This document shows, in pieces, positions 9,681-49,000 of a stretch of DNA of 64,000 bases; position 1 is the first letter of the stretch; each line of letters begins with the position of its first letter. The DNA is from Heterotrichella gracilis (taxonomy: Eukaryota > Sar > Xanthophyceae > Tribonematales > Xanthonemataceae). The position numbers and the translations under genes were made by a program. The notes under the pieces were generated by a model, which made no database searches, had not been told where the DNA came from, and saw only the letters and a program-made list of their open reading frames with translations. The stretch covers positions 1 through 64,000 of the forward strand of contig JAULBX010000670.1 of NCBI GenBank assembly GCA_032358255.1. The letters run 5' to 3'.

Positions 9681-12600
9681 ATGCAGCAGCTCAAGAACCC
9701 TCTGTACCTGCTCAGCGTCCTCTTCACTGCAGTGGCGGCAGTTGGGTTGCTCAACCACGCGTTCAGCAGCCCACCTTGTGCGGTGGTGCTGGCCAGCTCA
9801 CACAGTGTGGACCCTCCACAGCATCTCAAAATACAGCTGACGCATCGCCATGTGTTGCAAGCACGCAGCTTGGAGTCAAGTGCAGATGAACAGTATGGTG
9901 ACTCACCTGCACTTGTTTCAACAAGCTTTGCAGAAGGCGGTGCACATGGCGCCGCAAGAGTCAACGCAGCTGCTGTCAGAAATGGCCATGTGAGCAATGG
10001 AGGCGATGCATTGGAACCACATTACACAGATATCTGGCACCACCATCACCACTATCACCACCATGGCGATAGCATCAAATCAGACAACAAGGGGGAGCAA
10101 GGACAGGTATACAAAAATGCTGTTCATCATCACAAATCAGACACCAGTGGGGATGCGCCAGCAATGCATGTGCAGTCAACGAGTGCAGGCAACACTGGCA
10201 ATGGCACCAAAAATTCATCTCATGCACCTGCTACTGGATCTCCTGTGAAGAGTCCAGAATCCCAGGTGTCTTCTACCTCGCCTGCCCCAAGCTATATTGA
10301 AGCAGCCCTCAACAGGACGCCTGATCATCCCTTTGGTGACTTTGACAAAATGGAGGAGTTGCTGTCTGAGGAAGACAAGAAACTGGGGGACCCTGTGGCT
10401 GGACAGGTGTGAACAACCTTGAGATCATCGGATCAAATTGGAAGAACTCATTGGGTTTGCGTCATTATGGCATATTGTTGGCCATTAGGAGTATTTCTAT
10501 TAGTCATGTGCAGAGTATCAGGTACCAGGTTTTGTCAAAACCATTGGCTTGATGGTGTGCATTGTGGCTGGGCAGGAGCACATCAAGGCCTACCGGCGTC
10601 TGCCTTCCGAGGCCTTCACCGACACAGTTGACAAGTGCGTCTGCCCTGTGAGCATGAACCAGCTGAGCTTCTTTGACGTGCAGCAAGGAAAGATGCCCTA
10701 CCTGTTTGGAAGGCATCCAGCGTCACAGGGCATACAGGTGCGCACAGGTGCATACAGGTGTGCTTGCAATTGAGACGCATGAATTGTATTTGCTCTCTGT
10801 GCAGAAACTGCTTCCTGATACCTCAATACTGATGGAGTGTCAAATTGAATACTGATGGAGTGTCACATCTGTGCAGCCACACGAGAATGTTTGGTGGGAG
10901 CAGCTGTGCAGCTTCCGCAAGAACGTGAGCTATGGCGAGGAGCTGTACAAGCAGAAGCCCAGCTACTGGGATGTGTGCCCCGTGACACTCACCGATGAAC
11001 TGCTACACAGCTTCATCAGCAGGCAAGTCCACTGATTTGTTATACAATGATTGAATTTGTGCATCTGTTTTGTTGCATGTTGAGGACTTTTTCAGCTACA
11101 GTTACATTCATGGCTCTGGAGGGATGCATCCACAGACAATAGCCACACGCCATGCATGCCTGTCCAGCACAAGTGCATGTCGATGATGTATGGCAATTTG
11201 CGTCTAGTTTGAGTTCAAACGCCAACGAAAATATTGTCAAGATCATAATAGGATCCATGCACACGCAATTGTTGGGGAAATATTGACAGTCTGTTCTCTG
11301 AAGGATGCTGAATTAAATTAAATTGAAGCTCGTCATTTAACATTGTTACGATAAAATTAACACAAGTACTCTGAAGCATGAAAACTGTAACACAACTTGG
11401 TGCGCAGGGGCATGGAGAGCATGCTCATGCTCTCTCCATGTGACATGTGGTCTTACCTGTACGGCAGAACCCTCTGGGTGGTTGGAGATTCCCAGATGCT
11501 GGATTTTTACCGGGCGCTGAGGTGAGGCTGCCACTACAGTGCTGACACTGTTGAACTATCTTTTGCCACTGGCCACTGACATTGAAGCATGGTTCCATTT
11601 TCAATTTAATGAGATATAATAGGACGCACGCCAACTGCACGCCAATCTTGATGAGAATTCCTTGCTTGATGCATTTTCTTATAAATGCGCTGCAAGCTAT
11701 GTGCACACCATGCCTGAGCAGTGATTGCTGCTGCACAGGTGCTCCCTGCTGGCATGCTACACAGTATGTGCACATCATGTCAGATTACGGTACTACCTAG
11801 GAACGGTTCACTGCTGCTGTTCATGCGTCTTGCTATAAGCTACGCGCACACCGTTCCTGACCAGTGCTTGCTGCTCCCAGGTGCTTCCTGCTTGACTTCC
11901 ACGACACAGAGCTGTACAAGCCCCACGATGACCCCCAGGTGCTGCACGCCATGTCCAAGGATGGCACCCCCCCCGACTGCTTTGTGCTCATGGACAGGGC
12001 GAGGGTGTGCTTTGTGCGGCTGAACGTGGGGGAGGACGTTGTGGACCTGCTCAGGCTGTTTCCTAAGTGAGTCCACTTAGAGATGCAAACCAGGTCCTGT
12101 GAGAGACATGTGATGGGAGACATTAGCATTGTTGTGCTGCGTGGCTGCCGTAATTTTGTGTGCAGCGCACATGTCTGGCTGGTTTGGCACCTGACGCTGA
12201 GCATGTAGGGTTCCTTGATGATGGATTGGATGTGCAGCGATGCACCAAGCCAGTGCCTGGGGCCCCCAGCTCATCCCTGTGTAGGCAATCATCATGGTGA
12301 TGGCGGATTAGATGTGCACTAATGCCGGTAAGGCGCGTGGGTTTGGTGCAGGTTTGGGTCCACCCAGTAGGATATCATGGTACTAAAACCTGGGCTGTGG
12401 TGCAGGTTTGGCTCAACCCAGGACAACATGGTACTAACCTTGGGCTGTGGTGCAGGTTTGGCTCAACCCAGGACATCATGGTACTGAACTACGGGCTGTG
12501 GTACAAGACAAGCGATCAGGGCAGGGAGCAGCTGGAGGTCGCTGTGCACAGCCTGGCAGAAACCTTTGTGGGGCTGAAAGGCCAGCTGCCTACCATGGTG

Positions 12601-13193
12601 TGGAAGGACATCCCTCCCCAGCATTTCCAGACCAAGCACGGCGAATGGCCAAAGATCGACAAGTTCCCGCCCTACGACTGCGTGCCCATGGCCAATGTGA
12701 GCTTGAGGGATGACGGGCAGCTGGAGTCAGACCCCTATGATGAAGTGATACTCCAGGTACAGTATTGCTGGAAATGCATTTCTGTTCATTTATGAAAACC
12801 AATAATTTTATTTTGAATTGATTATATTGCTGCAAAAAAATGGTTCATATGCCTCAAACGATGGTTGCAGAGTTGGCATCTCTCAGTGGCGGCACTTCAC
12901 TAGTACTTGATAAAAAGAATTGAATTTATATTAAAAATGCTGAATTTAGTTTTCACTGTGTGCTGCAGGGTGGGTGGAGAAACCAGCTGGCCAACCGCAT
13001 ACTGGGCGACGCGCAGATCCCCATCGTGCACACCTTCAACACCAGCGTGGCCATGTGGCAGTACCACAGGGACAACGGCAAGGGCATGGAGTGCACCCAC
13101 TACTGCTTCCCCTCCTCGCCACAGACATGGATCCAGGGGCTGCACAGTACTCTGGAGACAGTCATGGGCCCGCAGTGCAGGGGGGAGATGTGA
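9681..13193 (+). CDS. Type II membrane PC-esterase / trichome-birefringence-like (TBL) protein
   Basis: This is likely a Golgi polysaccharide O-acyltransferase or esterase of the PC-esterase superfamily. Exons are 9681-10406, 10576-10737, 10877-11022, 11408-11521, 11881-12066, 12456-12756 and 12969-13193. Phases close, giving 619 residues. Intron 3 uses a GC donor (AG|GCAAGT). Residues 5-25 (LKNPLYLLSVLFTAVAAVG) are a single N-terminal membrane anchor. A low-complexity stalk follows, with a His cluster (HHHHHYHHH). The catalytic half shows WVVGDSQMLDFY (Ser373), MVLNYGLWY and ECTHYCFPS near the C-terminus. Plant TBL proteins carry DCSHWC at that last position, so the Asp of D-x-x-H is Glu586 here and His589 is kept. 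The ATG at 9681 is chosen because it opens directly before the membrane segment. Exon 6 has three tandem copies of its acceptor region and exon 7 is echoed in the 3' UTR. Confidence 0.85.
12350..12505 (+). repeat. Tandem triplication of the exon 6 acceptor region
   Basis: Three copies of a 50-54 bp unit carry gtgcaggtttgg followed by ccag-ga-atcatggtact. Their AG acceptors lie at 12350-51, 12404-05 and 12454-55. Only the third copy opens into the reading frame used by the PC-esterase (FGSTQDIMVLNYGLWY). The first two are degenerate. Confidence 0.85.
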
Positions 13194-13425
13194 GGCGGGA
13201 CCGGGTATCCACTGTGGGATTGTGAAGATATGTGTAGCAGCCTCCGTTGCACTCTGGCGACAGGCATGGGGCTGGCCCTGGTGCATGGGGGAGATGTGAG
13301 GCGGGGGCTGGGATTGCGCTTTGGTGATGGGATTGTCTGGGTGTATGTCGCAGCCTCCACTGTATATTGGAGACAGGCATGGGGCCTCAATGCGGGAAGG
13401 GGATGTGAGGCGGGTGCACAGGGGG
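13141..13425 (+). repeat. Degenerate 106-109 bp tandem repeat from the last exon into the 3' UTR
   Basis: The end of the terminal exon (tctggagacagtcatggg through gggagatgtgaggcggg) is repeated twice more downstream. The gatgtgaggcggg landmark falls at about 13187, 13293 and 13402. The stop codon TGA lies inside the repeated motif. Units two and three are noncoding. Confidence 0.75.
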
Positions 13426-14478: not shown

Positions 14479-17400
14479 ATGGCGAAAAGGGTTACCCTGG
14501 TGCCGCCGATAGAGCAGAGCGCGGACAGCCTTGAAATCAACAACCTGCACCTCGGCATAACCCCCGGCAGCCCGGATGTCGACGGGGATGGCAAGCGCTC
14601 GCCTGATATGATGTCAATCCATGGGGACAGCGTGAGTGTTCACCCGTTGAACTGCGTCACATAGCGTCATACACCTAAGGCACAACCCTATTCAAGCACC
14701 TGGTTGTCCCCTTTTTGTAGGCCGCTCGGAGACGTGCCATCACCGAGCTCCTGTTTTTCGCCAGCGTGGGAGACGTGCGGAGGTGTCAGCGTATCGTGCG
14801 GTTATGGAACCTCAAGGTGGGTCTCCAACCATGTGCCATGCGCCTGCTTTCCCTGTTAGATCCTTGGCGTGCCTCGCTGTGCAAGGGTCTAAAACTTGAG
14901 CGCTGTGTCATAGGTCTCGGACAAAGGCTGCTGCGACTACGACAAGCGGACGCCTATGTAAGTACTGCACACACCCTCAGTGCACAGGTGGACCGTTGCT
15001 TGCTGTTTGGCATAGTCCAGTACAACGCAGTCACCACCGTGCTATCAAACGCTGCACCACCCACCTACCATTGCAAGGGGTTTAAGGACTGCATCCCGAT
15101 GGGCTAGGGGATTCCAGTTTCCACCGCTATGCATGCATGGCTCATAACCCTACCCTTGCCCGTTGCAGGCACTTGGCAGCAAGCGAGGGCGCGTACTCGG
15201 TCACGGAGTGGTTCCTAGAACAAGGGGCAGACGTCAACGCCCTGGACAGGTTCAAGCACACGCCACTCGAGGTACATCCTCCCCCTGCCTAGCACCCCCA
15301 CCGCCTGCGTTGACTGGACACCAAAAGCGCCGTTACCCATCTCCCTAGTGTTTCCACTGACTCCACCCGTTCTGCCTAGTGCACTAGCTATGCTGAGTGG
15401 GCGCCAACTGGCTGTTACCCACCTATAAAGCTTCGCTAACTCAACCAGTTTTGCAATAATAATATAATTATTATTGCACGCAGGACGCAGTCAAGGGGGA
15501 GCACATAGAGGTAGCAAAGTTTCTGATTGACCATGGCGCCAAAATCTTTGAAGACGGCAAGGTAAGAGGGTGGGAAAAAGGGATAGGGTGCAGGGTGGAG
15601 GGGTGCAAGGGACCCATGCAGCCTTGGCATTGCACAATCGCCACCCCATGCATCCTCCCGAATGCGTGGCGCCATGCAATTGCACCATGGTCTTGGGGTT
15701 GCGTGAAACAGCCACCATGCTTCACATACAACTGGCGCACCTGTCCCTAAATGGAAGATAATAGGAGCAAAACACTCAAATGAAGAAGGACTGCCATGCA
15801 CGACCATGTTGCAGCTTGTTGACTTAGAGGACTCCACAGGTTTAGCTGTAGGGTTTAGGGTAACAAACCCTCAACCCTCAAACCTGTGTCCTTGCAGCTC
15901 GTGGAGCTTGAGAAGTCCAAGCTCGCCCAGCACGCGGTGCACATCCCCAGCGACCCATATGAGCTGGAGCAGGACTGGGAGGTGGACCCCGCGTCACTCA
16001 CAATCATGGAAAAACTCGGTAGGGTCCCCACTTGCACAAGCCTGCATCCCCAGTGACCCCGCCTCACTCACAATCATGGAAAAACCCGGTACGGTCCCCA
16101 CTGGCACAAGCCTGCATCCCCAGTGACCCATATGAACTGGAGCAAGATTGGGAGGTGGACCCTGCGTCACTCACAATCATGGAGAAACTTTGTACGGTCC
16201 TTGATCCTCACATCGCCTGCATCTCATGCATAAATGCGGCTCGCACCGCGCCACAAGCAAAATATCTATGAACATGTGAACATTTGGATATATGGGAGCG
16301 CTTTCTGAAGGAAGAAAAAATAAAATAGCAGGCCGTTTCCAGAACTAATCTTGTAATACTTGGTACGGGTTCCGCCCCCGCGCATGCATCCTATCTCAGC
16401 CGCTGCCACAATGTGAGCTTGGGTTGAATTTTGAAGTTGCTGAATCTGACGATATGACAGCCGCAAAAGTCTTTTGTTTGTTTATTTTACACAGTTTACA
16501 GGATGTTGCATATGCATGCATTGTGCAAAGCGCAAAATCATGGCATCATGCTGTCTCCACATCAAAGGCGCACCATGCCGTACTCCAGACGCATTCTCCG
16601 TCCTTCTCAAGTCGAGGGCGAGTTTGGCATCGTGCGATGTGTACCATGCGCATGCATGCCGAACCATCGTGGCAGTTATAACCCTCAAATTTACAGCAAT
16701 TTGCATATGCATGCATTGCGCGAAGGGCTGCAAAACACCGCACCAGCAGCCTATTGTTAATGCACTCAATTTACTGACCTTGCCCGCACTGCGAACACAT
16801 CTACCCGCCATCCTGGAGGGTTAACTCATACCCCCTTTCCAGGTGAGGGCGAGTTTGGCATTGTGTACAAGGCGCAGTGGTACGGCACCATTGTTGCTGC
16901 AAAGATCCTCAAGGTGTCGGACCACATCGCGCTGGGGGACTTCAAGACCGAAATCGAGGTGCTGCGCAAGGTGCACCACCCAAACGCGGTGCAGTTCCTA
17001 GGTGCGGGGGGATGGGTGGCAGGAATCACGGGGATTGAAAAAGGGATAAGTGCCCCTTTTCGAGAACATTCTCTTTATGGCCTGGGCATGTGCCTAAGAG
17101 AGGTGATGGGGCATGCAAAGAGCTGCACCTGAGCCGGCCAGTAGTCAGCTGGCTTGTGGACATTGTTCATCGGTCATCGGTAGTTGGCATGTGGCATTAG
17201 GGCGATGAATTGCATTAGGGCCACATGGGGTACTACCTACATCTTTTTCAGAAATACAGCCTAGGCTAGCATGGGGGCAAGAGCAAAATGCACCCCCTGC
17301 TCTTCATTTCAACTCCTTGCCCGTAATCCAGTGCGTGCACCCCCCACCCCCCACCTCAGTGGCTGCACAAAAGAGCCCTACCTCCTTATATAAAATTGCA

Positions 17401-19435
17401 AAACGCGTCCTCTGCTCCCCATCCAACGCCTTGCCCTCAATCCAGTGCACTCCCCCGCCCCCACCCCCAGGTGCCTGCACGAAAAAGGAGCCCTACATTC
17501 TTGTGACGGAGCTCATGTACGGCGGCTCGCTTGCCGATGCCTTCCAGATGCCCATGGCCATCAGCCTGCGCAGGGGGCTGGAGGTGGCGCTGGACACCGC
17601 ACAGGGGCTGGCATACCTGCACAACAGGTGGGGGGGGTGATGGGAGATGGGTTTAGGGTTTAGGGTCTAGTAACACCCACAACAGGTGATGGGGTGGGGA
17701 TGGGGGTGTGGGGGTGGGGATGGGCTTTCTGGGGGTGGCGCTGGACACTGCACAGGGGCTGGTATACCTGCACAACAGGTGCGGGGGGTGGGATGGGTGG
17801 GTGGGTGGTGGATGGTGCATGGGCTGGCGTACCATGGCGGATGGGTGCGTGGGGTGGTGGGTCCGTGGTGGTGGGGTGCTGTGATCACGGCCACATGGGC
17901 GCAAAGTTGCCAATGGCAGGGCAGTTAGGACTGGGGGCCATTCCACGAATCCATGGGCATGTGCACAGATGCCATGCAGGCATCGTCCTCCATCAACAAA
18001 CCTGCCAGTATCTTACACACACACATCACCATTCTCTGAAAGGCGCCTGCAACCTGCCGGGCGTATATGCCAACAACCCCAAACCCCGCCCCACGAAAAC
18101 CCCATTGCCAACTCCACACACCCATCCTAAACCTATCGGCCCCATCCCCATCCCTATCCCCATTCCCCACAGGAAACCCAGCGCGATCATCCATCGGGAC
18201 CTTAAGCCCGGCAACCTGATGATTGCCGGGTCACTGTACAACTCCCGGGACAACCTGGTGTATGACTCTGGGGTGATTAAGCTTGCGGATTTCGGGCTGT
18301 CCAAGTCGCTGCCGGTGAACAAGCACGCCAGCTATGACCTGGACTCGAAGTTCAGGCTGACAGGAGAGACGGGGTGGGTGTGGGGGTGATGGACGGGGTA
18401 TTGTGCTGTCATTTGACCAAAAGTTGTGTGAATGTGATCCTATCGGTTGGGCGATAGGATGGTTTTGGGCTGTGAAGTGGTTGCTGGTGAAGGAGGACTG
18501 CTTGTCAATACACCTGGATTGTACAGTTTAGCGGCGTCTCCTACTCCGAACTGTAAAATCCAGATGGATGGCCTGACGCGTATAACTAGAAACCTCCTAT
18601 TTGGCCTCCATACCCTCCTTTTCGCCCATCACTTGACACCCTCCATGCCTCTTAACCACCCTCCTGCTACTCACTCCCCCACTCGCCACCACCTCCTCTC
18701 ACCTCTCCCCCTCCTCCCCCCCGCAGCTCCTACCGCTACATGGCCCCCGAGGTGTTCCGCCACGAGCCCTACAACCCCAAGGTGGACGTCTACTCATACT
18801 CCATGATCATGTTCCAGCTATTCGAGCACCACCCGCCTTTCTCGGGCATCGACCCAGTGGAGGCCGCCAAGGAGGCCGCCATGTACGCGCGCAGGCCCGC
18901 GTTCATCACCCTTGCCAGGAATGGGCACAACCCGGTGCACACTGTGAGTGGGCGGGGGAGGGTTTGTGTTAGGGTTTAGGGTTTAGGGTAGGCCGGCCTT
19001 CGTCACCCTTGCCCGGAATGGCCACAACTCGGTGCACAGCGTGAGTGGATGGGTCTGGTCAGGCTTTGGAGGGTTGTATATGGTTCTGTGTTGTACCTAG
19101 CTTAAGGTTGTATTTGAGTGCTTGACGAACCCAACGTTGTAGGGTGCAGGGTGTGGGGTTTAGGGGGCATCAAGCGCCTGATCAAGTTCTGTTGGTCCCC
19201 CGACCCCGCTTACAATACTACATATTTCTTATTATTACTAAATTGCCCTGTAAACTTACAAATTTGGCCACTACCGCAGGGCATCAAGCGCCTGATCGAG
19301 TCCTGCTGGTCCCCCGACCCCGAGGACCGCCCCGCCTTCCCAGACATCGTGGAAACGCTGCAGGCCCTCATCAAGCAGGTGCCAAGGTCAAACACGCATT
19401 CGGGGGGAGGTGGGGGGTGCTGCTCGGTGCAATGA
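14479..19435 (+). CDS. Ankyrin-repeat protein kinase, plant ILK / Raf-like MAPKKK (group C) type
   Basis: Serine/threonine (or dual-specificity) protein kinase with N-terminal ankyrin repeats, like plant integrin-linked-kinase-type Raf-like kinases. Exons are 14479-14631, 14721-14816, 14914-14957, 15169-15271, 15484-15561, 15898-16018, 16843-17001, 17471-17627, 18173-18373, 18727-18943 and 19280-19435. Phases close, giving 494 residues. Ankyrin signatures are KRTPMHLAASEG, GADVNALDRFKHTPLE and GAKIFEDGK. Kinase motifs are the glycine loop GEGEFG (199-204), VAAK219, HRDLKPGN (Asp313), ADFG (Asp343) and YRYMAPEV, followed by SPDPEDRPAF. All catalytic residues are intact. The C-terminus is a Gly run ending CCSVQ, which fits a CaaX prenylation box with an adjacent Cys. 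Several introns contain partial copies of neighbouring exons. The start ATG has good context (accATGg). Confidence 0.93.
16019..16205 (+). repeat. Two ghost copies of kinase exon 6 3' end in the intron
   Basis: After the real exon 6 donor at 16019, the block that includes tcactcacaatcatgga, with the following donor-like cggta or tgta, recurs at about 16042-16100 and 16107-16200. The second copy also repeats the PSDPYELEQDWEVDPASL coding stretch almost intact. Confidence 0.85.
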
Positions 19436-20983
19436 CCGGGGGTGGGGTGGGTGGAGGGTGGGCGGTGGCGACAGGGATGCGGTGATCATTGGTGGGTGTG
19501 CCGGCTGAGAGGGAGGGAGAGGGGGAGGGGAGGGGGGAAAGGGGGGGGTTAAGGGCATTGCCTCACCTGGAGTGTTTGTGGCGAGCCTTGCGGTTGAGTG
19601 GCATAGTCTGAGGGAGGTTGAGACCCTGGTGTGACCCTGGTGGGTGGGGGGCGAGGGGTAAATGTTGGAGAAGAGAGGGAGAGGGGTGGGGTTGGGAGGC
19701 GTTTGGTGCCTGAACTAGTGAACGGATGGTACCTCCAGCACTGTACTTTGATTTAGCTCAAGGCAAGGCCAGGCCTTGGGAATTCTGCAAACAATTGATG
19801 AGCCCTAGTGCAGGGTATCATTGGTTTCAGCATTGACCTTCTTACCTAAGTAGGGCAGGTATACATATGTACAGCCATTACCCCTGCACCCGCGTGCTGC
19901 GCATTTTGTGATTCAGCCAGCATGCACATCAAAGGTGCAGTAGGGGGGGGGCAGAGGCTAACGGCCGAGGCATGCCATGGGGTGCGTTCCCTAGGTTGAC
20001 CAATTTGGTGTACCACACCCAGTTTTCGAGCAAGGTTGCTGTTGTTGTTTGTTATTTTGAGCAGCCTGGCTTTCCACGCGTGACTACACCAGGAGTTGCG
20101 TGATGAGTTTCTGTGCTCGTTTCTGGTGTTCAGTGCGACTGAACCCTACACTAGGGTTTTTGGGCACCCTACCCAGGAATTGTGCATGTCAGCTTAACAT
20201 ATTGGGAGCTGGCACACAGGCATTGCTAACCCCAAGGCAGTTGTAAGCCACGTGAAGCTACTGTAGCATCTGGTAAATGCATACGTAGGTCACGCATGAA
20301 TGGCCCTACTTAAAATTTCGAGTCGCAAACAAGCGGCACCGTTAGTCCCACTTGCCACACACTGGCGTGTTCCCCTTATGTGTGCCCGTTTGAGTGGCAG
20401 GGCAGAGTGTGGGACCACAATCAGAGCACAATATATTGGGTAATACCTCCGCGCCCTAGGGTTTCGTTACCCCTTGCTAGGGCTAGCAAAGTCGGGCACT
20501 GATGCAGGCACCCAGGCACCAACAGTGTTGGTAATGACGCGATGCAAAGCTGTTGAGCCGGCAGTGAAGCTTTTGAGTGGCAGTGGATCACCATTATAGG
20601 GTTTGCACTCATGCATGCATGCATTCGTGGCACCATCAATTAATTAGAGGATGTGAGGTTGAATGGCCAGCTTACTTGTGAGTTACTTGTTTAAAGGCTT
20701 CCTATTCTTCGTGTACCCACCACCACAGTGATATACCGCCAAAGGGTTTTTCTTTCCTCTACTACGTGCCAACCCTAGTATGGGATCCCATTCCACCTCC
20801 ACCCGTGGCATACGCCCACGCCCTCGTGACCTCCTCTAAATCGTCTGCAAAGCCCAATAACAGCTGAAAGTGCTTCACTTGACGGTCTGATCCCACCCAT
20901 CGGCCTCGTTACAAGCCCGAACTCCCACACTCCACTCGCGCCTTCCCACAGCCTAGCCGCGCACAAGAGCCTCTCCTGCAGCC
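19436..20983. other. Intergenic region between kinase and amidase
   Basis: About 1.5 kb with G-rich low-complexity DNA just after the kinase stop (19436-19560) and no exon-like coding sequence. It contains the kinase 3' UTR and the amidase promoter. Nothing else could be recognised. Confidence 0.45.
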
Positions 20984-26700: not shown

Positions 26701-27503
26701 GTTGGGGAGTTTCCAAAGGTGCTGCAGCAGGTAACCTCGCCTAGAAAGATGCTAGCAGGGGTGCGGATGGGGAACAGGGTCTTCTAGACTGAGTGGGAAC
26801 CATTGGTGCCTTTCCAATGAACACCACAATTTAAAGTATGCAGCAATGGTTCTTTACAGATTTTACACACAGTGTGGGGCACAATACCCTGCTGAGGTTC
26901 AATAGGTTGATGCTATGTGCCACATAGGAGGGCATACTACGTCTTATATCTTACGTGTTTTCCTCCCCTGTACCGTGCATAGCGTGTAAGGGGTGCTAGA
27001 GGCTGGCCGTTGCCAGCAGTTCTTGTGCTACGTACATTGCTGGCTGCACGTTGCTTTTGCCAAATTCAGATTGATTTGTGCGAAGTGCACGAGCCTTCGG
27101 GTACCACTCACTGGGTAGGAGTAGGAATGGTCTGTAGCGCAAAGGCTGCTTCCCCAAGGGACAAACAAAATCCAACTTGATATTTAATATATATTACAAT
27201 GTTTGCAGCACGCTTGACTGGCTTCCTGATTGAAAAACAGGTAGGATCAATGCTCTCACACAGCGTGAGAAAGTGAAGGACGAGGGCTACATCTTACCAT
27301 AACGTAAGAAACAATGGCTAGATCTTATCAACTGAGCACATGATCAAACACTAATAAAAGCAATTACCCTATTGTCCATTGAAAGCAATTTCTGTCTAAA
27401 CAAGACAATATCTGACCGTCAAAAAAATCTTGAGATTTTTGTAGTACAGTTCTGTATGAAAGCATTAGTTTTCTCCACAGGCGTGCTAATCGTCACAGTG
27501 TGT
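26701..27503. other. Convergent 3' intergenic region
   Basis: Spacer between the stop codons of the plus-strand amidase and the minus-strand GH24 gene. No further gene is recognisable. It must hold both 3' UTRs. Confidence 0.5.
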
Positions 27504-31002: not shown

Positions 31003-31232
31003 CTCTGTGCGTTCCCCTTCTTTCTTTCTTTCTAGAAGGACCCAGACTGGGCCAGGCTCTGGAAATGTCACTCCGACTAGTTCTACTAAACATGTCAAAA
31101 CGAAGTCAACTTGGAAGACTTGTCAATTTGAAGCATTAGAGGAAGCTGGCACTACGGCGGTCCTACATGCAAGCCCTCGGCACCACAGGCATTTTCTTAA
31201 AGCTGCATTGCCGCATATTGCATTGCATGCCG

Positions 31233-38000: not shown

Positions 38001-41000
38001 GCGGCAGGAGGACATTGACCGCGCGCGCATGAAGGGCGAGGCGCCCCCCGCGCACACGCTGGTCAGGGAGGCGGGGCTGCATGGGTCGCTTGACCAGGAT
38101 GTGCAGGTGAGGGTCTGGGTAGGATATTTGGGTTTGGCAGACAAGTGCCTGTGAGAGTATGGGATGGACAGCTATAAGTTATAACTTAACTTTGAGCAAG
38201 GAGTTTGGGGGTTGAGGCCTTGAAGGGGATGCAGGAAGGGAGACGTGCATGAAGGGCGAGGCGCACTTTGCGCACACCCTGGTGCAGGTGAGGGTTTGGA
38301 CAGTTCCTTGTAGTGGTGAAGCGTGGGCAAAGCAGCCCTGACCATCCCCTCCCTGTGACCCACCAAACCCCCCACATAAACACCATAACCCCCTTGTACC
38401 CCCATCCCCACCACACCCTCTTCATACACCATACCCCCTTCACCCCTTTCCTCGCCATAATCCCCACATACACCATAACTCCCACCCTGTACCCCACCGC
38501 ACACTCACCCCCTGCAGATGATGCTCACCGGCAAGTCGCACGCCGAGCTGCTGGAGCTGGAGGAGGGCATCCGAGACCAGCTGGACTCAGGCGCCGCAGC
38601 TGACCCCGAGTACTGGGTGGCCGTACTCAAGCGCCTGCGGGTGCACAAGGCCAAGGCCAGGCTGCGGGGGCTGCATGCGCAGCTGCTGGAGCGCCAGCTG
38701 GCGGCAGATGGGGAACGGGAGCGGGTGGATGTGGCTGCCGCCATGGGCTGGAATGAGGAGGACCAGGTGGGTGGGGGGTAGGAAAATAGCAATCTTCTAT
38801 TATATTCCATGGTATAGATTTTTTAAATTTAAAAGAATACCTTTTTTATAAAGCTTTACACGAAGGTGGAATGAGGAGGGGGTTCTGCAGGTACAGTGGG
38901 GTGTGCATATGTGGCGAGATGCGTGTTATGGCAGGATCGGGTGGATGTGGCTGCGGCCATGGGCTGGAAAGAGGAGACCAGGTGGGTGTTGTGGTGGGGG
39001 GTGGGGGTGTTCTGCGGGCATGGTGGTGTGTGGGCGTTGGGGAGATAGGGGAAGGAGAGCGGGTGGATGATCATGATGATTTGCAGCGGCCAGGCTGTCT
39101 TGTGCAGTATCACATGGCTTGGAATTGGGCTACATGTATGCATTGGACCAATGGGACTTCACAACACCCTAGGGACTGCATTCAACCTTCATTGTATAGG
39201 TCGTGCAATAATCCAGCGGTGGCATTGAAACACTGTTGGGATCCTGCAACATGTCCTATGCACTGCAGCAGCTGCTTTCTCTTCTGCCTGACACAACCCC
39301 CATGTGTGCCCCGCCCCGCAGGTGCCTCGCCAAGGGGTGGTTTTGCACAATGACGAAGAGATTGAGCTGGCTGAGGAGGCAGGGGAAGAGCAGGAGGAAG
39401 AAGCAGCAGGGGTGGCAGGGGAGGAGGAGGAGAGTGAGCAGGAGGAGAACGTGGGGCAGTACAGCCCAGAGCCGCTGCGGCCGGAACAGGTAGGGTTTAG
39501 GGTGCAGCTGGCGAAGGTTTTAGGTGCCGCTGGTGGCCCAGCACTGCATGGGAGTGCTTTACTATATGGGCAGGTGCAACTGGGGCATGATCCATTGCGA
39601 TGCGATGCAGCTGGTTGGACTTTGAAACCATCTCCATCTGTCTAGCAGCCCAATGTGCTTCCCCCTCCTGCCCATTCAGTTACACCTGATGCTTTGGCGA
39701 CGCTGCCGCCTCCCAGCCGCCAGTGTGTGCCGCGCTTGCCTTGACTCCCCTGCTTGCCCTAGTTGTCCCTCACCCTTATCTTGTCTTGTCTACTTACTAC
39801 CCCCTGGTTCCCCAGGTCCATGGCCAAGATGTGGTGAGTGAGGTTGAGGACATGCGCATACTGGAGCTGCTGCGAGCGCAGGTGAGGGGGGGTATACTAC
39901 TGATGCAGGGCTATGGTAGCGCAGCGATAGTCCCTAGTGACTGTGACTACCTGTATCATCGCTGTATCATCCTTTGGTAATAATCAGGTGGAACATTTCC
40001 CATGCGTTCCAGCGGCACGGTGCGATCATCGACTTGCTCATAACGCCCTCGGGCAAGCCACTCTTTCCATGAGCTAACAAAAATCGACGTACACAAAACA
40101 CATCAATCATGCATTTTGGTTTATTCGTTTTCACAGTTGTGGGCCACTGCGATAGGAGAAAAATACAATAAATCAAATAGATTAAACAATTGATTCCAAT
40201 TTACGTATCTTTGCAGGTGCGCTACCGCGACGCGCAGCTGTTCCGCGCCGCCGCCGCTGCTGCGGCATCCGGCAAGCCCTCGGGCGCCGACGACGCGGAC
40301 CGCGCCTACCAGCGCCTCATCTCAGACCCCGGCTCCCAGCTGGGCAACCACAACCCCATGCTGCGCTACATCACGGACGCCGCGCCGCAGCGGGGCGAGG
40401 CAGCCATGCGCTCCGGCCTGCCGCCACCCGGGGAGGACCCCAAGGACCGGCAGTTCATGGTGCGCTCGCTTAGGGTTATCTTGTAGGGTGCGGGATATTG
40501 GGTGAATTGAAGGAGGAGAAAGGTGGCCCCTTCCGTTAACTCAACACTTACTTAATTTCCTTGTTTGTGCCTCTTTCAGGCCAGCGCCAGCCGCATGATG
40601 GGCGACATGAACGAGGAGAAGGACGCGCCATTTGGCGGGGAGGTGGCGCTGGAGTCGCAGGTGTACTGGTGGCACGAGAAGTACCGGCCGCGCAAGCCCA
40701 AGTACTTCAACCGCGTGCACACGGGCTACGAGTGGAACAAGTACAACCAGACGCACTACGACTCGGACAACCCGCCGCCAAAGGTAGGGTTGCCGTGCAG
40801 TTAGGGTAATATCCCACTGGTTAGGGTAACTAGTGGTGGTCATACATGCAGACGCACTGCGACTCTAACAACCCACCGCCAAAGGTAGGTTGGCTTGCAT
40901 CCTGTTTTTGTTATCTTCACACTGTGGCAATGCAGATGGAGTAGCAGTCGGGCTCGCAGCTGTGGCGCCGGGGAGCTTGGTCCGAGCACTGTTTCCACCC

Positions 41001-41417: not shown

Positions 41418-42433
41418 TACCAGAGTGTGTGTGTGGGGGGGGGGGGGGCAAGGGCGTGGTGTGAGAGAGGGTGTGGGGTGGGGGTGGCGGTCTGTGGGAT
41501 GCAATAGATACCGTGGTTGGTGGGGTGGCGCCAGGCATTCATAGATATATACAGCCATGGCATCGGCGCAGGGCTATAAAATATTGTCATTTTGGCATCT
41601 GATGATTCATAATGAAGTTCATGTGGCGGTCATTGACCGCGCCCCATCAGCCATCATGGCATTGCCTGCGGGCATCAAGGGCAGCCTGCGGCAATTAGCC
41701 ATTGGCCCCTATTAGGCCATCCTATGAGGCCATTAGCCCCTTGACAAAACCGTTTTAATTTGGCAATAATTTGACGGTCACCGCGACGGCGTCGAAATTC
41801 GTTCATGACAATGTCATGTGGATATCGCCCATCAGCTGACTAGACTAAGTCCTGAGCAAAGGTCCTGGGTGCGAACCCTGCGGATAGTTGGCGCTGCCAG
41901 CGACATGATGTGATGTCTGACACGGCGTGCAGGCTGCGACCCGGACCCGATGGCCAGTTGCATATATTAATTTTGCAAACGGCAACATGGTGCCATCATG
42001 CTGGTAACCACCCCGGGCCCGCACACTGGCAGTAATTGCAATGGGTGAGTAATTTTGTTACAGCGAACTCATTCAGATTCTGAACCACTCTAAAATGTTG
42101 AACGTTAAGTCTTGATGGTGCATTAAGCATATATGATACAGTGTCAGTGCAGACTGTCGTGACAATCATTTGCATCTTGTTCAATTATGTTATTTCTGCA
42201 GCCTGACACCCCACACCCCACCCCACGTCGCCCCTTTCCCTGCGTCGTCCTTTCAACCCTAGCTCAGGGCCATGCCCCGCCCAATCCCGGCGGTAGCACT
42301 TGCTCCTGCACCCCGACCTCCCCCGGTCGCCCATAGTACCCTAGTTTAGGGTTTGCGCCCTGCTCATGCCCGGCGGTAGCAGGTGCTCCTGCAGGTTAAA
42401 CACCACCCCCCCTCCCTTGTCTCCTGCTCAACC
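41418..42433. other. Convergent 3' intergenic region
   Basis: One kilobase between the cactin stop and the RanBPM-like stop. It begins with a gtgtgtggg-type run of 14 G residues (about 41433-41448). It ends with ghost copies of the last RanBPM exon (about 42270-42400). No gene is recognised in between. Confidence 0.5.
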
Positions 42434-42497
42434 CTAGTTTAGGGTTTGCGCCCTGCTCATGCCCGGCGGTAGCAGGTGCTCCTGCAGGTTGAACACT
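42270..42497 (-). repeat. Tandem copies of the last exon of the RanBPM-like gene
   Basis: The block ctagtttagggtttgcgccctgctcatgcccggcggtagcaggtgctcctgcaggtt occurs at 42341 and 42434, a period of 93 bp. A more decayed copy lies at about 42270. The block at 42434 is the genuine 3' end, where cta is the complement of the TAG stop. Confidence 0.85.
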
Positions 42498-45400
42498 TCC
42501 CCCTGGTTACCGTTGCATGCGTGCGCCTCCTGGTGCACCGCCACTAGCTGCTGAAGCACGCGCTCAAGCACGGCCTGGGGGGGCGAGAAAGGGGAGGGTC
42601 ATATGCGGGGCACGATGGACATTGTTTCCCACTTTGCCATGTGGTCTAGGGTTTAGGGTTCAGGGTTCTTCCCTTGATCTGAGCCCGGAGAAAGAGGTGC
42701 GATACTAGGCTTAGCAGGGCTACTTGGCGTGCCGCGGGAAAATCCAGAGGCTACTTAGGGTTTAACCACCTCCACACCCCTTGGCAATACCCCCGCGCCT
42801 GAGGCCGCTGCGGCCTGCTCCCTGCCCCTGGCCAAGCCACTGAACTTAGGATCATTACATACAATAGGAGGCTTTGCCTTCTCTCATATGCCCGTTGGCA
42901 AATCTTGCACCCCCCACCTGAGGTTCCGCGCCCTGCGCATCCCCGCTCGCCGCCGCCAGCATGGCCCTGTTGACCACATCCGCCACCATTTCCCGCTGCC
43001 CCATCCCCAGCAGGTGGGCCAGCGGGGACTCGCTAGGGTTTTCGTAGGCGATGAGCGCCACCACGCTGTGCAGGACCTCGTCCAAGCCAGGGTTGTGGCC
43101 GCGCAGGTTGGAGAGGGTGGACTGGGCAAACTGGACCGCCTCTGAGATCCTGCCAGACCTGTGGAGGGGGTGGGAGTGTTGTGAGGGGTGGGGGGTGACA
43201 GGGGGAGGGTGGTGGGTGTGGGTGCATGCCAACCCGACGCGTGCACCATCCACCCAGGCTGCATTTGCAAGGACACCGTCACAGCAACGATGTCAGATCA
43301 TTGAAAACGTGTGTTAACAATGAAAGGAAGTTGCGTCGTCCTCCCATCTCCCACCCCTCACCCCACAAACCGAACGGGCAGATAATTAGTTCCATGCACT
43401 AACGCATCCAGGTTAGCAGCAGGTCTTGGCACATCCGGCGCCAAGCAATTAGGTCATTAGTATTGCATGGTCTACACCAGCAGGATACTGATGCCAACAG
43501 AATTAGAATGGTCCATTGGTACAACCCCCACGAGGTTGGTTCTGCACGAACCATCGGGACATACAACCCACCTGATGAGCTCTATGTAGTGCTGGCAGCT
43601 GACGTGGAAGTGCGCCTCCCAGCTGAGCTGCATCAACCCCATGTCACCCAGCACAGACCGAGCAGCCTCCACCTCGCCACGCACAATATGCTGACGCACG
43701 CGCTTGCGCAGGCCCAGGTTGGCAGCCTCAGGCCCATCCTGGCCCCTGCGAGTGGGGTTTTACCAGTGGGGATGAGGGTGGGGATGAAAGTGGGGATCGG
43801 CGGGGACCAGAGTGGCAGGATGGGATAAGGACAGGGACAGTGATGAGCACCCGCCCCACACGATGTGCTGACGGGGATGGGAGTGGGGATGGCGGTGATG
43901 TGAGTTACATTGTCGGGATGAGAGTGGGGAATGTGAGGCACTGCCTTTCCAGCGGGCATGCATGGGTCGGAAGCTTGGTGGGGGGCAGAGGCGGGGTTAA
44001 TGGTTCATTCGCATCAGAAAACCCTGAACCCTAACCCCCACCTGTCCGGTGCCATGCGCCCGCATCCCCCACCAGCCACAATGCAATGCCCTAAACCCTA
44101 GCCCAAAAACCCTAACCCCCACCTGTCCAGTACCGTGCCGCTGGCCTCCCCCACCGCTCCCGCGCCAAGGTCAAATGCCGCCAGCGTGTCGGCATAGCCA
44201 TAGTGCAGCAGGTAGTTGCGCACCATCTGGTGGCAGTCCGCGGGGGGGATGTGCGCGCTGCAGGAGCGGGAGAGGGCATGTGAGGGAAACGCGGAAGTGG
44301 GGTTAGGTAATGGTGAGTGGCGGATGGCGCAAATATAGCCGTTGGGAGCGTTTAACGGTGGTGCAGGGTGTGCGCCAAACAGGGCATGTGTGCCACCTCC
44401 TGTCATACCTATGCACCGCCACCTCTTGCTGCTCCCGCTCATCCTGAAGCAGCGCCTGCACAAAGGTGGTTAAACCTTATAATTTTGGCGCCAATCTAAG
44501 GCTCTATGGGTGTTTGCAAATGTAGTTTGGTGCGGCAGTGCAGTGGCAGTAAACCAGGCCAGACACGTTGCTGGCAGAGCAGGCTACGCACCTCCACATC
44601 AAAGCGGAAGGGCGCGTTGCCAAAGTTGACCTCCACGCAGTCTGACTGACTGCACGCGCACACGCATGCCGCTGTAAGTGAGTTTGCTGTCGCAAATGGG
44701 TGTAGTGGGTTAGGGTTTAGGGTTTAGCATCACACACCTGTGCAGGCCGATCGTTGGGAATAAGGGGACGGCCGTGACGCCCTTGAACGCCACGCCTATG
44801 TGCTTGCCGTTCTTCCTGCAAGGAATATAAATCCTCTCAGTTACAACCCTTAAATCCGGAAATGCACTTCTTCACTGGTTGGTGGGGTGCGGGCACGGGG
44901 GTGGTGGTTGTGAGGCTGGTGGTTGTGGGTGCGGGTGTGGCTGAGGCTGAGGTGTGGCGTGGGTGGTGGTGGCATGGTGTGATAGAGGTGCTGGTGGTGG
45001 TGGGTGGTGGTGGTGGTTGGGTTGGGGTACCCACGTAAAGAACACCTCCTGGCGCCCCAGGTGGAACCCTGCGCCAATGGTGTCCCCCGCGCCAAAGGGC
45101 GGCCCATAGTCCTCCCCTCTCGTGCAGTTCGAGTACTTCTTCCCGCTATCTCCCCTGTACCCATAGCTGTTGGGCTCCCACCTGAAGGCGCCAGGCACAA
45201 CCATGGCTCATGTGACTGGGATTAAACCTGGATGGCTAAACGGCATGCAAGAAGGTAGCACAATCAGCTCAGTTCAGGCAACGCATCGTGATCTACGTAC
45301 CCAGGGTGCCTTCCCATCTTGAAGTTCTTGTCAGAAAAGCCCACCCCGATCTCGCCCCGCTCGCTGGCTTCCTTTACAGTGACCTCGAAGTAGTACAGCA

Positions 45401-45569
45401 GGCGCTTCCGGGGCACGGAGTGGTTGCCCTGTATGCACCCCACGTCGTTCTCATGCTGCGCCTGGCCTGTGTACTTGACCGTGAGCTTGTCCTTGCTGGC
45501 TTCCAGGAAGAGGTTGAAGTCGCTGATGTTGAGCTCGGAAGGGAGGGGTTCCTCCTCCACACCCGCCAT
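42434..45569 (-). CDS. RanBPM/RanBP9-like SPRY-LisH-CTLH-CRA protein
   Basis: Scaffold subunit of the CTLH/GID E3 ubiquitin ligase. Exons on the minus strand are 45569-45301, 45181-45035, 44815-44738, 44649-44592, 44455-44409, 44257-44123, 43745-43572, 43158-42918 and 42574-42434. Phases close, giving 429 residues. The SPRY domain spans about residues 45-180 (YYFEVTVKEASERGEIGVGF, YGYRGDSGKKY, GDTIGAGF, FFTKNGKHIGVAF, VEVNFGNAPFRFD). A LisH motif follows (MVRNYLLHYGYADTLAAF). CTLH is RKRVRQHIVRGEVEAARSVL and CRA starts at SGRISEAVQFAQSTL and reaches the C-terminus. The last residues, RAQTLN, are encoded by a telomere-like aaaccctaaac that leads straight into the stop. It lies head to head with CCR4. 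The start ATG is in frame after an upstream non-ATG extension. Confidence 0.92.
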
Positions 45570-46061
45570 GGTTTCACTGCCAAGCAAGCAGCGTGGCGTG
45601 TACGGTATTACATGGGATGCGTATTGGAGAGTTCATAAGTGGGTTTCGGGTCCCCGAGTTTCTATCGTAGTTCGACGACAGATATGAAGGTGTATCGTTT
45701 ATGCATGCATTTGGCATTAGGTGGATGGGCACCGTTATTGCAGCGGCGATGCTTTCTGCGACTGGAAGAGGCACAGACACAGACACAGACTCTTTCAGTT
45801 TGGGCCGCTATTTATGACATACAAGGGCCGAGGAATCTGCAAATTCTCCCTTGTCCTTAGAACGGCGGTCCGCCGATGCAGGCGGCACGAGCGGTGGCAC
45901 AGGCGGGGCTGGCGAAAACAGAGGCATCAAGCAAGTCAGGTTCTATAAACCTGGAGTTCAAACCCTTTGGCTGATTAACAGGACGTTCCGGGCAGGCCAA
46001 CGTCCCGGTTGTGTTCGCCTGCTGCGCAGGAAGGTAGCGGTATGGAGTGAAAAGATGTCCT
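45570..46061. promoter_or_regulatory. Shared divergent promoter region, RanBPM-like / CCR4
   Basis: This 492-bp interval separates the start codons of the minus-strand RanBPM-like gene and the plus-strand CCR4 gene. Both encode parts of turnover machinery (protein and mRNA). No specific element was identified. Confidence 0.5.
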
Positions 46062-49000
46062 ATGGCTCAAAGCTTCACCATCGTTAGCACAAGGCTCCCC
46101 TCGGGAGACAGTCCAGTATGCACTGTGACGTTGGAGCCGTACGTGCTGATACGGAAGGCAGACACGAACAACACTGTAGCCGCTGACGATGCCCCCGAGG
46201 AGGGAGCCTCGGACGGCCGCTACTTGCTCAAGTCGCGGTGGTACCGGAGTGGCAACAGCAGGGGGGGGGCAGTGTGCTGGATTCACCAGGACAAGGATGC
46301 CATCATCCAGTGCATACTGTGCCTGAGGACCAAATGCGACGCCAGGAAGAGCTACCACTGCTCGCCAGAGTGCCTCAAGGAGCACTGGCACTCGCACAAG
46401 GACATGCATCAGTCTCGGCAGAATGGAGGTCAGCCATCCTTCTGACACGCTCCAGCTCAATAATGGCCCACTCAGCAGCTTGTCTAAAGCTTTCCGTGCC
46501 CACTCCCCGTGCAGGAGAGTCCAACGGGTACGACTACAGCTTCAAGAGCACCACGTACAGCAACGGTGGGGAGAGCTGGGTGGAGGTGAGGCACCAAGGT
46601 CCAATTTTGACCACGTCCAGCACCACTGAGGCCCTGGCCCCCGCTGAAAGCCCCCATCATCCCTCGCAGGTGGGGAAGTCACGGCTGTACACTCCTAGCC
46701 CGGAGGACGTGGGGAGCATCCTCAAGTACGAGTGTGTGGCGATGGACACGGCACTGGCCTACCAGGACGTGGGCAAGACCTTCTCTGTGCAGACAGGGAG
46801 GGTCAAGCCAGCCCCAACGCCACCCAAGCGTGCCATGATTGCCCTCCCGGGCGCCAAGCGCAACAGCCAGGCCCCAACCTTCACGCTGCTGACATACAAC
46901 CTGCTGGCTGACCTCTATGCCACGGTATGGAGGGGACCATCACCCACCCCTGCACCACCACCCACACCGCCCCATCTTCATTTGGGATCACAGACTCCCC
47001 TGATTGCACCTAGAACACCTCCATCACAGATTAAGAACCGTGTTAAGCCCTCACCAGGCATACAGAAGCAGGGCAGGACGTTTGGGAGGCACTGCTGTTG
47101 TTGTTTGCCCTCACCACCACCATTGCAGAGGTCTACATGAGCCTGGACCTTGGTAGCTGCTTGGAAAAGACAAGGATCCTTGGTGCGTGGGTCCTCAGTT
47201 GGTGGATGCAACCAGATGGCGCAGGCCTGTACCTTGTGCCCTGTACCGCTCGCAGGGCGACATGTTCAGCCACTGCCAGCCCTACACCATGTCCTGGCAG
47301 TACCGCAAGCAGAACCTGCTCAAGGAGCTGCTCAACTACAAGGCGGACATCCTGTGCCTGCAAGAGGTGCAGAGCAACCATTTCCTGGACTTCCTGTCCC
47401 CGGAGCTGCAGGTAGGCCCAGGGACACACGGCAGGGTCTCAGTGATTTTGCCCATCATATTGCACAGGGCCACCTGCCTTGACTTGACCCAGAAAGACCT
47501 AGGCTCACGCAAGGATGGAGACTGTTTATACCAGTCTTCAGGATTGACCTGTTTGGCGCCGCTCGCGCAACGCTGACAGAGTAAGAATAATGAATGGATT
47601 TAAAAACATTAGTCGCTGCAGAGGCACGGCTACACAGCCATCTACAAGAAGAAGACCACCGAGAGCTACACGGGGTCCTCCTTCTCAATAGACGGCTGCG
47701 CAACCTTCTTCAAGAGGGACCGCTTCTCGCTGGTCAAGAAGTACGAGGTGAGCTGGCGGGTAGCTGCATACTCAATTTGCATGATGACTGACAACATGCA
47801 TTAAAGAAGGGTTGATTCTCGTTAATCAAGAACTGTGGGGTGAGCTGGCGGGCAATAAATCTACATTCAATTTGATGAGATTTTAACTAGTTACAGTTTT
47901 CTAAAAATGGGCAGCTTTTCGCACGTTAGGTGCTGGGCTGGCCAGGAGCGCAGTGGCTTGCTGCCTCCTTTTTAGGCGCCACTGGTGCGGTTGGGCTGGC
48001 TCGTTAGGGGGCAAGGGTTGGTGTGCTGGTGGTGACAGGTACCGCCCCAGTACCGAGGGAGCATAATAATTGTCCACGAGCTGCAAACACCCGAATCAAC
48101 CTGCATGTGCATCACAAGCAGGGTTGCGGTTGTCACGCTGCGCATTTCCTCTGACAGGCCTGCAACTCTGTCATGAGCGACCTAAAGCGTCACGGATGTT
48201 GGGGCATGCATGCCACTGGGCACGCATGCTAATTGTAAACTGGGTTGGTGGCGCAGGTGGAGTTCAACAAGGCAGCCATGTCTCTGTCGGATGCCATCGC
48301 GCCGGACCAGAAGAAAGCGGCACTCAACCGCCTGCTCAAGGTAATTCTATGTTATAAGAGGGGTTGGGTGCAGGGTGTTTGCCTTCCGCATCCTGTCATG
48401 CAGAGGCTGCACGGTGGGGTATTTAGACAGCATCACAACTTTGTGGGTTGTACTAGAGTCGGGGGGGTGCCTGTTTCTGCCCACTGCCATGATAGCCTGG
48501 CACGTGCTATGGTTTGGACCAACCGCACTGGCAAGAAATGACACCCATGGCAACAAACGTCATCCATGTGAGTGCCCTTGTTCCAACACTGAACATGCAT
48601 GGTCATGCACCTCTCCTGCCACCACCACCCGCCATGATACCCCACCCAGCAGCCACCCCCGCCCACCCCCGCCCACCTCCCGCAGGACAACGTTGCCCTG
48701 ATCGCTGTGCTTGAGGCCCTTGACCCCGCGCACCCCGAGACCCAGGGCAGCGGGCGGCGCCAGCTCATCTGCGTGGCCAACACGCACATCCACGCCAACC
48801 CGGAGCTGAACGACGTCAAGCTGTGGCAGGTGCACACGCTGCTCAAGGTGAGGGACATAGGAGTGGGTGGGCAGGGTTGGGGTCTTTATTTTCTGGGGGG
48901 AGCATGAGCAGGGTGCTGCAGCGTCGTCGTCATGGCCGATGCAGTATACCAGCAGGGGAGGGGCACAGACAGGACGATGCATGGCAACATTCTTGGACGC

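Follow-up and report, generated by a model that had tools for sequence, protein, structure and literature searches.

The window (the whole 64,000-nucleotide stretch analysed) holds a PC-esterase-like gene, a kinase, an amidase, a gene model at 31233-34091, a cactin, a RanBPM-like gene and a CCR4-like gene, each with exon edges that recur nearby as short copies, here called ghosts. The name PC-esterase-like is unverified, because Pfam gave no family for that model. Copy spans are 11694-11892 and 12344-12505 in the PC-esterase-like gene; 15942-16200, 17283-17502, 17578-17811, 18893-19048 and 19165-19322 in the kinase; 22987-26140 in the amidase; 35768-36542 and 37147-40899 in cactin; and 42253-42503 and 44027-44155 in the RanBPM-like gene. 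All six genes in which the first-pass annotation had described exon-edge copies do carry them, the CCR4-like gene by one weaker pair only. The individual features are as follows.

11694-11750 (+): ghost of the start edge of exon model 11881-12066 (aligned 11837-11892), 84% identity
12344-12404 (+): ghost of the start edge of PC-esterase-like exon 12456-12756, in a 50-bp array of 3.1 units (12344-12502)
13251-13417 (+): last modelled exon (12969-13193) has its end copied here, beyond the exon, 69-78% identity
16055-16200 (+): two donor-edge ghosts of kinase exon 15898-16018, without a foreign spacer, 95% and 90% identity
17283-17387 (+): start-edge ghost of kinase exon 17471-17627, 74% identity
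17649-17670 (+): telomeric tract between the donor edge of kinase exon 17471-17627 and its ghosts
17729-17797 (+): donor-edge ghost of kinase exon 17471-17627, 91% identity, with a partial further copy just upstream
18969-18989 (+): perfect three-unit telomeric tract, immediately ahead of the ghost at 18990
18990-19048 (+): donor-edge ghost of kinase exon 18727-18934 (end as modelled; second donor 10 bp on), 86% identity
19165-19208 (+): start-edge ghost of kinase exon 19280-19409, 93% identity
22987-23025 (+): start-edge ghost of amidase exon 23151-23336, 82% identity
23425-23546 (+): ghost of the donor edge of the same amidase exon, 72% identity
23917-23975 (+): degenerate telomeric tract between amidase exon 23775-23914 and its first ghost
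23978-24111 (+): two donor-edge ghosts of amidase exon 23775-23914, 94% and 84% identity
24159-24463 (+): three start-edge ghosts of amidase exon 24535-24686 at 110-121 bp spacing, including the acceptor and the tract upstream of it (family D2)
25853-26132 (+): two donor-edge ghosts of amidase exon 25436-25706, separated by a telomeric tract
32451-32492 (-): ghost of an exon edge (32334-32375) of gene model 31233-34091, 86% identity
35768-36018 (+): three start-edge ghosts of cactin exon 36101-36295, each having an upstream tract of its own (families D1 and D5)
35822-35878, 35937-35968 and 36067-36092 (+): telomeric tracts between or before the cactin copies
36383-36542 (+): two donor-edge ghosts of cactin exon 36101-36295, 75-83% identity
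37147-37240 (+): start-edge ghost of cactin exon 37339-37509, 73% identity
37656-37798 (+): donor-edge ghost of cactin exon 37339-37509, 75% identity, part modelled as exon and absent from human cactin
38244-38293 (+): copy of part of cactin exon 37918-38106, modelled as exon, 84% identity
38934-38988 (+): donor-edge ghost of cactin exon 38518-38766, modelled as exon, 93% identity
40843-40899 (+): donor-edge ghost of cactin exon 40580-40783, modelled as exon and absent from human cactin, 84% identity
42274-42410 (-): copies of the edge of RanBPM-like exon 42434-42574, 78-96% identity
44027-44073 (-): ghost of the donor edge of RanBPM-like exon 44123-44257, 85% identity, telomeric tract 44089-44119 between
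47816-47852 (+): weak donor-edge ghost of CCR4-like exon 47622-47747 (pair 47724-47760 / 47816-47852), 81% identity, 36.5 bits

The copies had been described as short, in the same orientation and close to the exon edges they resemble, and the repeat statistics bear this out. With the low-complexity filter on, direct repeats dominated the self-comparison of the window, with 39 alignments of at least 38 bits at spacings of 70-426 bp; at 40 bits or more, 39 direct pairs lay within 800 bp and one farther apart, and 10 of the 15 inverted matches were hairpins with centres no more than 50 bp apart. Across 26 ten-kb pieces (260 kb, comprising 20 sampled places elsewhere in the genome and 60 kb of the window), we found 92 direct pairs spaced 50-450 bp versus 3 inverted pairs, the same-strand, short-range pattern expected of end-joining tandem duplication, and two dinucleotide shuffles per piece yielded no pair at these spacings. 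The window (60 kb) contributed 38 of the direct pairs and the sampled places (200 kb) 54, the latter including three alignments at one place, L024 (8634-9244), that lie on either side of an N gap and probably reflect misassembly. A check set beforehand, comparing exon-intron similarity with that of control pairs, was run and came out in favour of the copies: exon edges resembled the adjacent intron in 31/779 tests, against 0/1123 for random length-matched introns, 0/717 for non-adjacent introns of the same gene and 1/779 for reverse complements. Ghosts also occur beyond the window, in 17 of 282 introns at the 20 sampled places. The suspicion that misassembly, low-complexity sequence or faulty gene models produced all this can point to the L024 pair 8891-9244, which flanks the N gap, and to gene models predicted without RNA support, but the copies differ by 3-32%, most have their own spacers, they came through the low-complexity filter, and the direct-over-inverted excess counts against an artefact because it is independent of gene models; we regard it as exceedingly improbable.

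Among the 73 primary pairs (the three L024 alignments included), copies had a median length of 71 bp (5th-95th percentile 37-239) and a median spacing of 115 bp (70-279), and the sizes of 40-90 bp and spacings of 50-150 bp first proposed describe the middle of these distributions, the full ranges being wider. Post hoc, 21 of the 73 spacings fell at 100-119 bp, near 108 bp; the 20-bp bins on either side held 8 and 5. The two members of a pair abutted in 20 cases, were separated by a spacer related to the sequence beyond the copy in 15, and by a spacer without a detectable duplicate in 38, and many events were therefore not clean tandem duplications; of the earlier reading as short tandem duplication, the short same-strand duplication stands and the clean tandem arrangement fails for many of the events. 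Even among pairs of at least 86% identity, the spacer was unrelated in 14 of 23 (one of the 14 being the L024 N-gap pair). Some spacers were AT-rich, 12 of 51 falling below 42% GC versus 10.9% of random intron windows, and the one of these 12 that was searched genome-wide for an organelle or repeat origin (38774-38933) matched itself only; as to introner-type dispersal, 1 of the 40 direct pairs of at least 40 bits in the window lay beyond 800 bp. A search for an allelic copy of window positions 15000-27000 gave 13 short matches and no long one among the matches listed, a weak result, since the query's own place was likewise absent.

Two further proposals, that the copies carry splice sites and that introns holding them are longer, agree with our counts. 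GT or AG was kept in 32 of 38 exon/non-coding copies spanning a predicted splice site, and in 5 of 6 others that were exon on both sides according to the gene finder; median intron length was 380.5 bp with a ghost versus 250 bp without (p=0.0001). Such features could recall the birth of new introns through tandem duplication of an exonic AGGT site, and one intron of 398 does fit (L033:6396-6537, minus strand), but ghosts spanning a splice site hold an extra copy of an existing site, and in-register matches were found in 0/398 introns between intron start and downstream exon start and in 1/398 between intron end and upstream exon end. On these last counts we rejected intron birth as a general account, and consider it barely credible as the origin of the ghosts.

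The graded decay noted earlier is borne out. In 53 pooled pairs (one L024 N-gap alignment among them), exon and ghost differed at codon positions 1, 2 and 3 at rates of 0.100, 0.115 and 0.188, compared with 0.194 in the aligned intron parts, and codon differences comprised 117 synonymous and 174 non-synonymous changes. The ghosts look dead, and their differences match one-sided neutral decay. If they were instead functional duplicated exons, used together or alternatively, copies that keep frame and sites would be the place to look: kinase copy 16115-16200 shows 7 synonymous and no non-synonymous codon differences from its exon, and the copy at L010 2850-2952 shows 7 and 1. Yet the kinase copy has a poor donor (score 0.1), human cactin is without the extra modelled stretches, and the pooled codon-position data, in which non-synonymous changes are numerous and positions 1 and 2 differ at about half the aligned-intron rate, do not show protein-level constraint on both copies; on the pooled differences we rejected functional exon duplication, which we hold to be very unlikely. 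The same codon-position decay leads us to infer that the concentration of pairs at exon edges is partly survivorship, because selection holds the exon copy and the pair stays recognisable for longer.

Telomeric repeats at the seams had been overlooked in the first-pass annotation. Of 39 ghosts, 15 had a TTTAGGG-type 7-mer no more than 30 bp from their exon-interior end (13 of 33 when counted by intron; ghosts within one array are not independent), against backgrounds of 5.6% at matched intron offsets, 7.1% in random intron stretches and 6.9% at random near-exon positions. Nineteen permuted heptamers reached 0-3/39 at the same seams, the five commonest of all 7-mers there were rotations of the telomere repeat, and the signal was present both at the sampled places (7/17) and in the window (8/18). 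A test that placed the seam without exon calls, from which the three L024 alignments were dropped, gave a weaker contrast (25/86 inside versus 10/75 outside, p=0.012), the outside value itself exceeding the 6.1% of random introns. The telomeric 7-mer was absent from 24 of the 39 seams, and the four kinase-locus ghosts in the test had none. Ordinary short tandem duplication, by replication slippage or end joining without telomerase, with telomeric sequence abundant in introns from some other cause and meeting the seams by shared location, would suit these seams, the 20 abutting pairs and the 15 related spacers, but not the seam excess over matched offsets and random near-exon positions, and we judge it rather unlikely.

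Perfect telomeric 21-mers numbered 834, with no hit for the reversed pattern or for one permuted repeat. In the sample, telomeric sites fell 104 times in introns, 17 between genes and 3 in exons, and tract density per 10 kb was about fourfold higher in introns than between genes (5.43 versus 1.29). Direct repeats flanked 19 of 86 intronic telomeric sites, compared with 93 of 1500 control intron sites and 0 of 747 swapped flanks. Internal telomeric repeats far above chance, with flanks duplicated at some sites, are what is looked for in interstitial telomeric sequences (ITS) inserted by telomerase. Introns with ghosts held telomeric sites in 11 of 28 cases and others in 56 of 379, a comparison on which we do not rely because it is confounded by intron length. 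The TTCAGGG variant, as in contig-end arrays, was tried as a signature and dropped (10 versus 3 TTTGGGG in the sample, 67 versus 62 genome-wide).

The position of the tracts bears on whether they preceded the duplications. Of the 39 ghosts, 11 had a tract at the seam only, 4 at the far end only, 4 at both ends and 20 at neither, the G-rich strand was oriented towards the ghost in 11 cases and away in 4, and the tract order expected from healing of both ends gave no signal (2 versus 2). Interstitial tracts might have come first, being fragile through stalled forks and G-quadruplexes and triggering template switching that copies nearby DNA, so that a tract would stand at the seam because it caused the break. 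Consistent with this, the intron-side ghost end is also enriched in the telomeric 7-mer (10/39), tracts occur at both ends of some ghosts and inside some copies, as in cactin, and telomeric sites and pairs rise together per 10 kb (rho 0.57, p=0.0025, 26 pieces), a trend that speaks equally for the break-repair account given below; against it, seam-only tracts exceed far-end-only tracts, and the abundance of tracts in introns is left unexplained. We think this order of events improbable, albeit worth keeping in view.

The best explanation, to which we would give about an even chance judging from sequence, is repair of staggered breaks with duplication, often with filler made by telomerase. A DNA break with staggered ends, or two offset nicks, would start the duplication; the region between the cuts would be kept by both ends, which would be filled in and then joined, leaving a same-strand copy of mostly about 40-110 bp. 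In roughly one third of cases a telomeric tract stands at the seam, as would be expected if telomerase extended the broken 3' end before joining. Duplications that spare the exon would survive, and selection would keep the exon copy while the spare drifted neutrally into a ghost; because of that drift, introns would grow and temporarily gain extra donors and acceptors. The data show the duplications, how widely they occur in the genome, their neutral decay, the splice sites they carry and the telomeric excess at seams; we infer staggered breaks, telomerase as the filler source and a process running today. More tentatively, and with a distinctly smaller chance of being right, telomerase could be a routine break-repair polymerase in transcribed DNA, the ghosts being long target duplications at breaks patched by telomerase and the process a leading source of longer introns and of new splice sites.

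Intron growth and the origin of splice sites are usually inferred from rare single events; one genome here seems to hold a dense, graded series of them, orderable by decay and with the repair product kept. The telomere repeats often present at the seams suggest that faulty DNA-break repair lengthens genes, and if telomerase makes the filler, an enzyme of chromosome ends would shape gene structure.

Several known systems resemble this one in part. In plants, tandem sequence duplications reportedly arise from offset nicks, on the same strand, locally and over tens to about 100 bases; the local same-strand size is alike, but here abutting pairs make up only 20 of 73, and telomeric filler turns up frequently. 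Introns gained through duplication or break repair show short direct repeats and splice sites near intron ends, which are also seen here, whereas in our case existing introns are lengthened and the in-register signature of birth is nearly absent. The Chlamydomonas reinhardtii telomere repeat is TTTTAGGG. A report on that green alga describes interstitial telomere repeats as a band of about 200 bp and suggests end fusions (PMC6549138); such repeats are shared, and here the perfect 21-mer far outruns its reversed control. No precedent at the scale of introns was found in the open-licence literature searched, and mammalian precedents exist: short interstitial telomeric sequences were inserted at double-strand breaks, with random filler and direct target duplication at some loci, attributed to staggered breaks, target duplications being present at 6/130 rodent, 4/25 primate and 3/66 horse loci, and human tracts are intronic only in proportion to intron length (PMC2246262; PMC7215372). 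The internal telomeric tract and the direct duplication are common to both systems, whereas here, on the sequence of a single genome, tracts are denser in introns than between genes, duplications are longer and many copies carry exon edges.

The first-pass annotation had described degenerate copies of exon edges lying in the adjacent introns or flanks (here called ghosts: decayed, same-strand copies), and the exon-intron similarity test that it had proposed bore this out, with matches in 31 of 779 adjacent comparisons versus 0 of 1123, 0 of 717 and 1 of 779 in the controls. The pattern also held beyond the window, as had been supposed: 17 of 282 introns at the sampled places carried a ghost, compared with 9 of 96 window introns and 28 of 407 overall, and upstream-exon (15/388) and downstream-exon (16/391) copies were equally frequent. 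This detailed analysis covered 309 kb of an assembly of 68.5 Mb in 903 contigs: the window, 20 places sampled elsewhere and 13 small loci. The sampled places, 20 ten-kb pieces across 15 contigs, were chosen by coordinate, although the sample is not strictly random, its contigs having been taken from those with kinase matches and known sizes; one piece (L020) itself contains a kinase match.

Gene models over the 309 kb are predictions of a self-trained gene finder. They gave 410 introns with a median of 256.5 bp, with predicted donor consensus AG/GTRNG and acceptor consensus TGCAG/G (slash at the splice site). Models in the window included the following:

Window, gene-finder model: ankyrin/kinase gene fused with the amidase into one model
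Window, gene-finder model: SPRY/CTLH protein
Window, gene-finder model: CCR4-like nuclease with an endonuclease/exonuclease/phosphatase domain
Window, gene-finder model: cactin

Some cactin ghosts were miscalled as exons by the gene finder, and in an alignment with human cactin two or more of the additional cactin stretches faced gaps in the human protein. The chlorophyll-binding family had 43 matches in the genome; for a 178-residue piece of one of them, at locus L040, the best solved-structure matches were chains 7pi0, 9is4 and 6kac. Since 7pi0 and 6kac are Dunaliella and Chlamydomonas structures, we take the genome to belong to a chlorophycean green alga.

Same-strand similarity at 50–450 bp is far above chance: across 26 ten-kb pieces (the 20 sampled places, 200 kb, plus 60 kb of the window) we found 92 same-strand pairs, versus 3 inverted pairs and 0 in shuffles. 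The window was denser, with 38 pairs in 60 kb; the 200 kb of sampled places held 54, including 3 beside an N gap. Density was uneven, with a variance of 8.2 against a mean of 2.6 per 10 kb. By self-comparison, window positions 1–11693 and 44156–61574 held no duplicate pair of at least 38 bits, though both are gene-bearing; a 36.5-bit pair lies at 47724–47852. At L024, one of the sampled places, a run of N is flanked by a direct repeat (144 bp, 97% identity) with two shorter repeats beside it (8634–9244); these are probably an assembly artefact at the gap and no ghost. A minisatellite of about five 37-bp units (window 61575–61760) falls within a minus-strand gene model (60030–63371) that presumably encodes a signal-recognition-particle receptor.

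Among 103 alignments at 50–700 bp, 52 crossed a predicted splice boundary versus 31.7 ± 4.2 under random placement, wholly intergenic pairs fell below expectation (6 versus 18.6 ± 3.9), and exon-intron pairs as a class were mildly above it (32 versus 24.5 ± 4.2). The exon-edge pattern would need no special targeting, since duplications that spare the exon would survive and copies that contain exon sequence would stay recognisable longer.

In 53 exon/non-exon pairs, only partly independent and with overlaps inside arrays, codon positions 1, 2 and 3 differed at 0.100, 0.115 and 0.188, and aligned intron parts of copy pairs at 0.194. These values are as predicted if the ghost evolves neutrally next to an exon that stays fixed, which would give the change of one lineage at positions 1 and 2 and of almost two lineages at position 3 and in the introns. 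Splice dinucleotides were retained in 32 of 38 copies spanning a predicted splice site, about the expectation under 10% neutral divergence per base. Unlike the pooled ghosts, a kinase exon copy at window 16115–16200 (within 15942–16200) showed 7 synonymous codon differences from its exon and no non-synonymous one.

Start-to-start spacing peaked at 100–119 bp (21 of 73 primary pairs), and a second, looser group lay at 180–226 bp. Twenty of these 73 pairs abutted, 15 had a spacer related to the sequence past the copy (p < 0.01) and 38 had a spacer for which no such relation was found; at 86% identity or above (n = 23) the counts were 4, 5 and 14, the last including one N-gap pair. Twelve of 51 spacers were AT-rich (under 42% GC; e.g., window 38774–38933 and 19209–19278), and one such spacer, searched genome-wide, had no other match.

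The genome carries a TTTAGGG array with TTCAGGG variants at the end of contig C173 (L012) and a CCCTAAA array about 130 bp in from the start of contig C712 (L014). Exact telomeric 9-mers occurred at 104 sites in introns (125 kb sampled), 17 between genes (86 kb) and 3 in exons (98 kb), against 3–25 sites in total for each of 14 permuted heptamers. A perfect telomeric 21-mer was found 834 times genome-wide, longer arrays contributing several times, versus 0 for its reversal and 0 for one permuted repeat. Extrapolating from 51 telomere-like tracts in 200 kb, we infer many thousands genome-wide. In gene sense, TTTAGGG tracts leaned to the intron 5′ half (28 versus 10) and CCCTAAA tracts to the 3′ half (30 versus 20) over the 309 kb, a bias that could stem from splicing selection or repair polarity.

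Telomeric DNA was enriched at the duplications. A telomeric 9-mer was present in the spacers of 20 of the 91 pairs that have one, versus 5.7 ± 2.3 in length-matched random intron windows. At the seam, the ghost end matching the exon interior, 15 of 39 ghosts (13 of 33 by intron) had a telomeric 7-mer no more than 30 bp away, against 7.1% of random intron stretches, 6.9% near exons, 5.6% at matched offsets in other introns and 0–3 of 39 for permuted heptamers. The five top-ranking seam 7-mers were telomere rotations, two of them also among the commonest general intron 7-mers. By source, the seam signal appeared in 7 of 17 ghosts at the sampled places, 8 of 18 in the window and 0 of 4 at kinase loci, with the G-rich strand running towards the ghost in 11 and away in 4. 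When exon calls were used solely to drop exonic flanks, inside positions still exceeded outside ones (25/86 versus 10/75, p = 0.012).

We give about even credence to an origin in staggered breaks repaired with duplication, often with telomerase-made filler. The further proposal, that telomerase is a routine break-repair polymerase in transcribed DNA and a main engine of intron growth and of new splice sites, we hold as tentative and the less probable of the two; the enrichment of the intron-side ghost end as well, if weaker (10/39), lowers its odds slightly. Tracts lay at the seam only in 11 ghosts, the far end only in 4, both in 4 and neither in 20, a distribution compatible with either order of tract and duplication. 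Because 24 of the 39 seams lacked a telomeric 7-mer, telomerase can explain only part of the pattern unless older filler has decayed. In the open-licence literature we found no paper joining intron gain, telomerase, double-strand breaks and telomeric repeats, and none joining telomere-like sequence with introns and Chlorophyceae genomes; among the matches listed, no title named the duplicated-exon-edge pattern. Two reports on mammals describe telomeric tracts inserted at double-strand breaks, sometimes accompanied by a target duplication, which is ascribed to staggered breaks, and sometimes by random filler (PMC2246262; PMC7215372). The anatomy here agrees with the mammalian insertions, the density being greater and the duplications longer.
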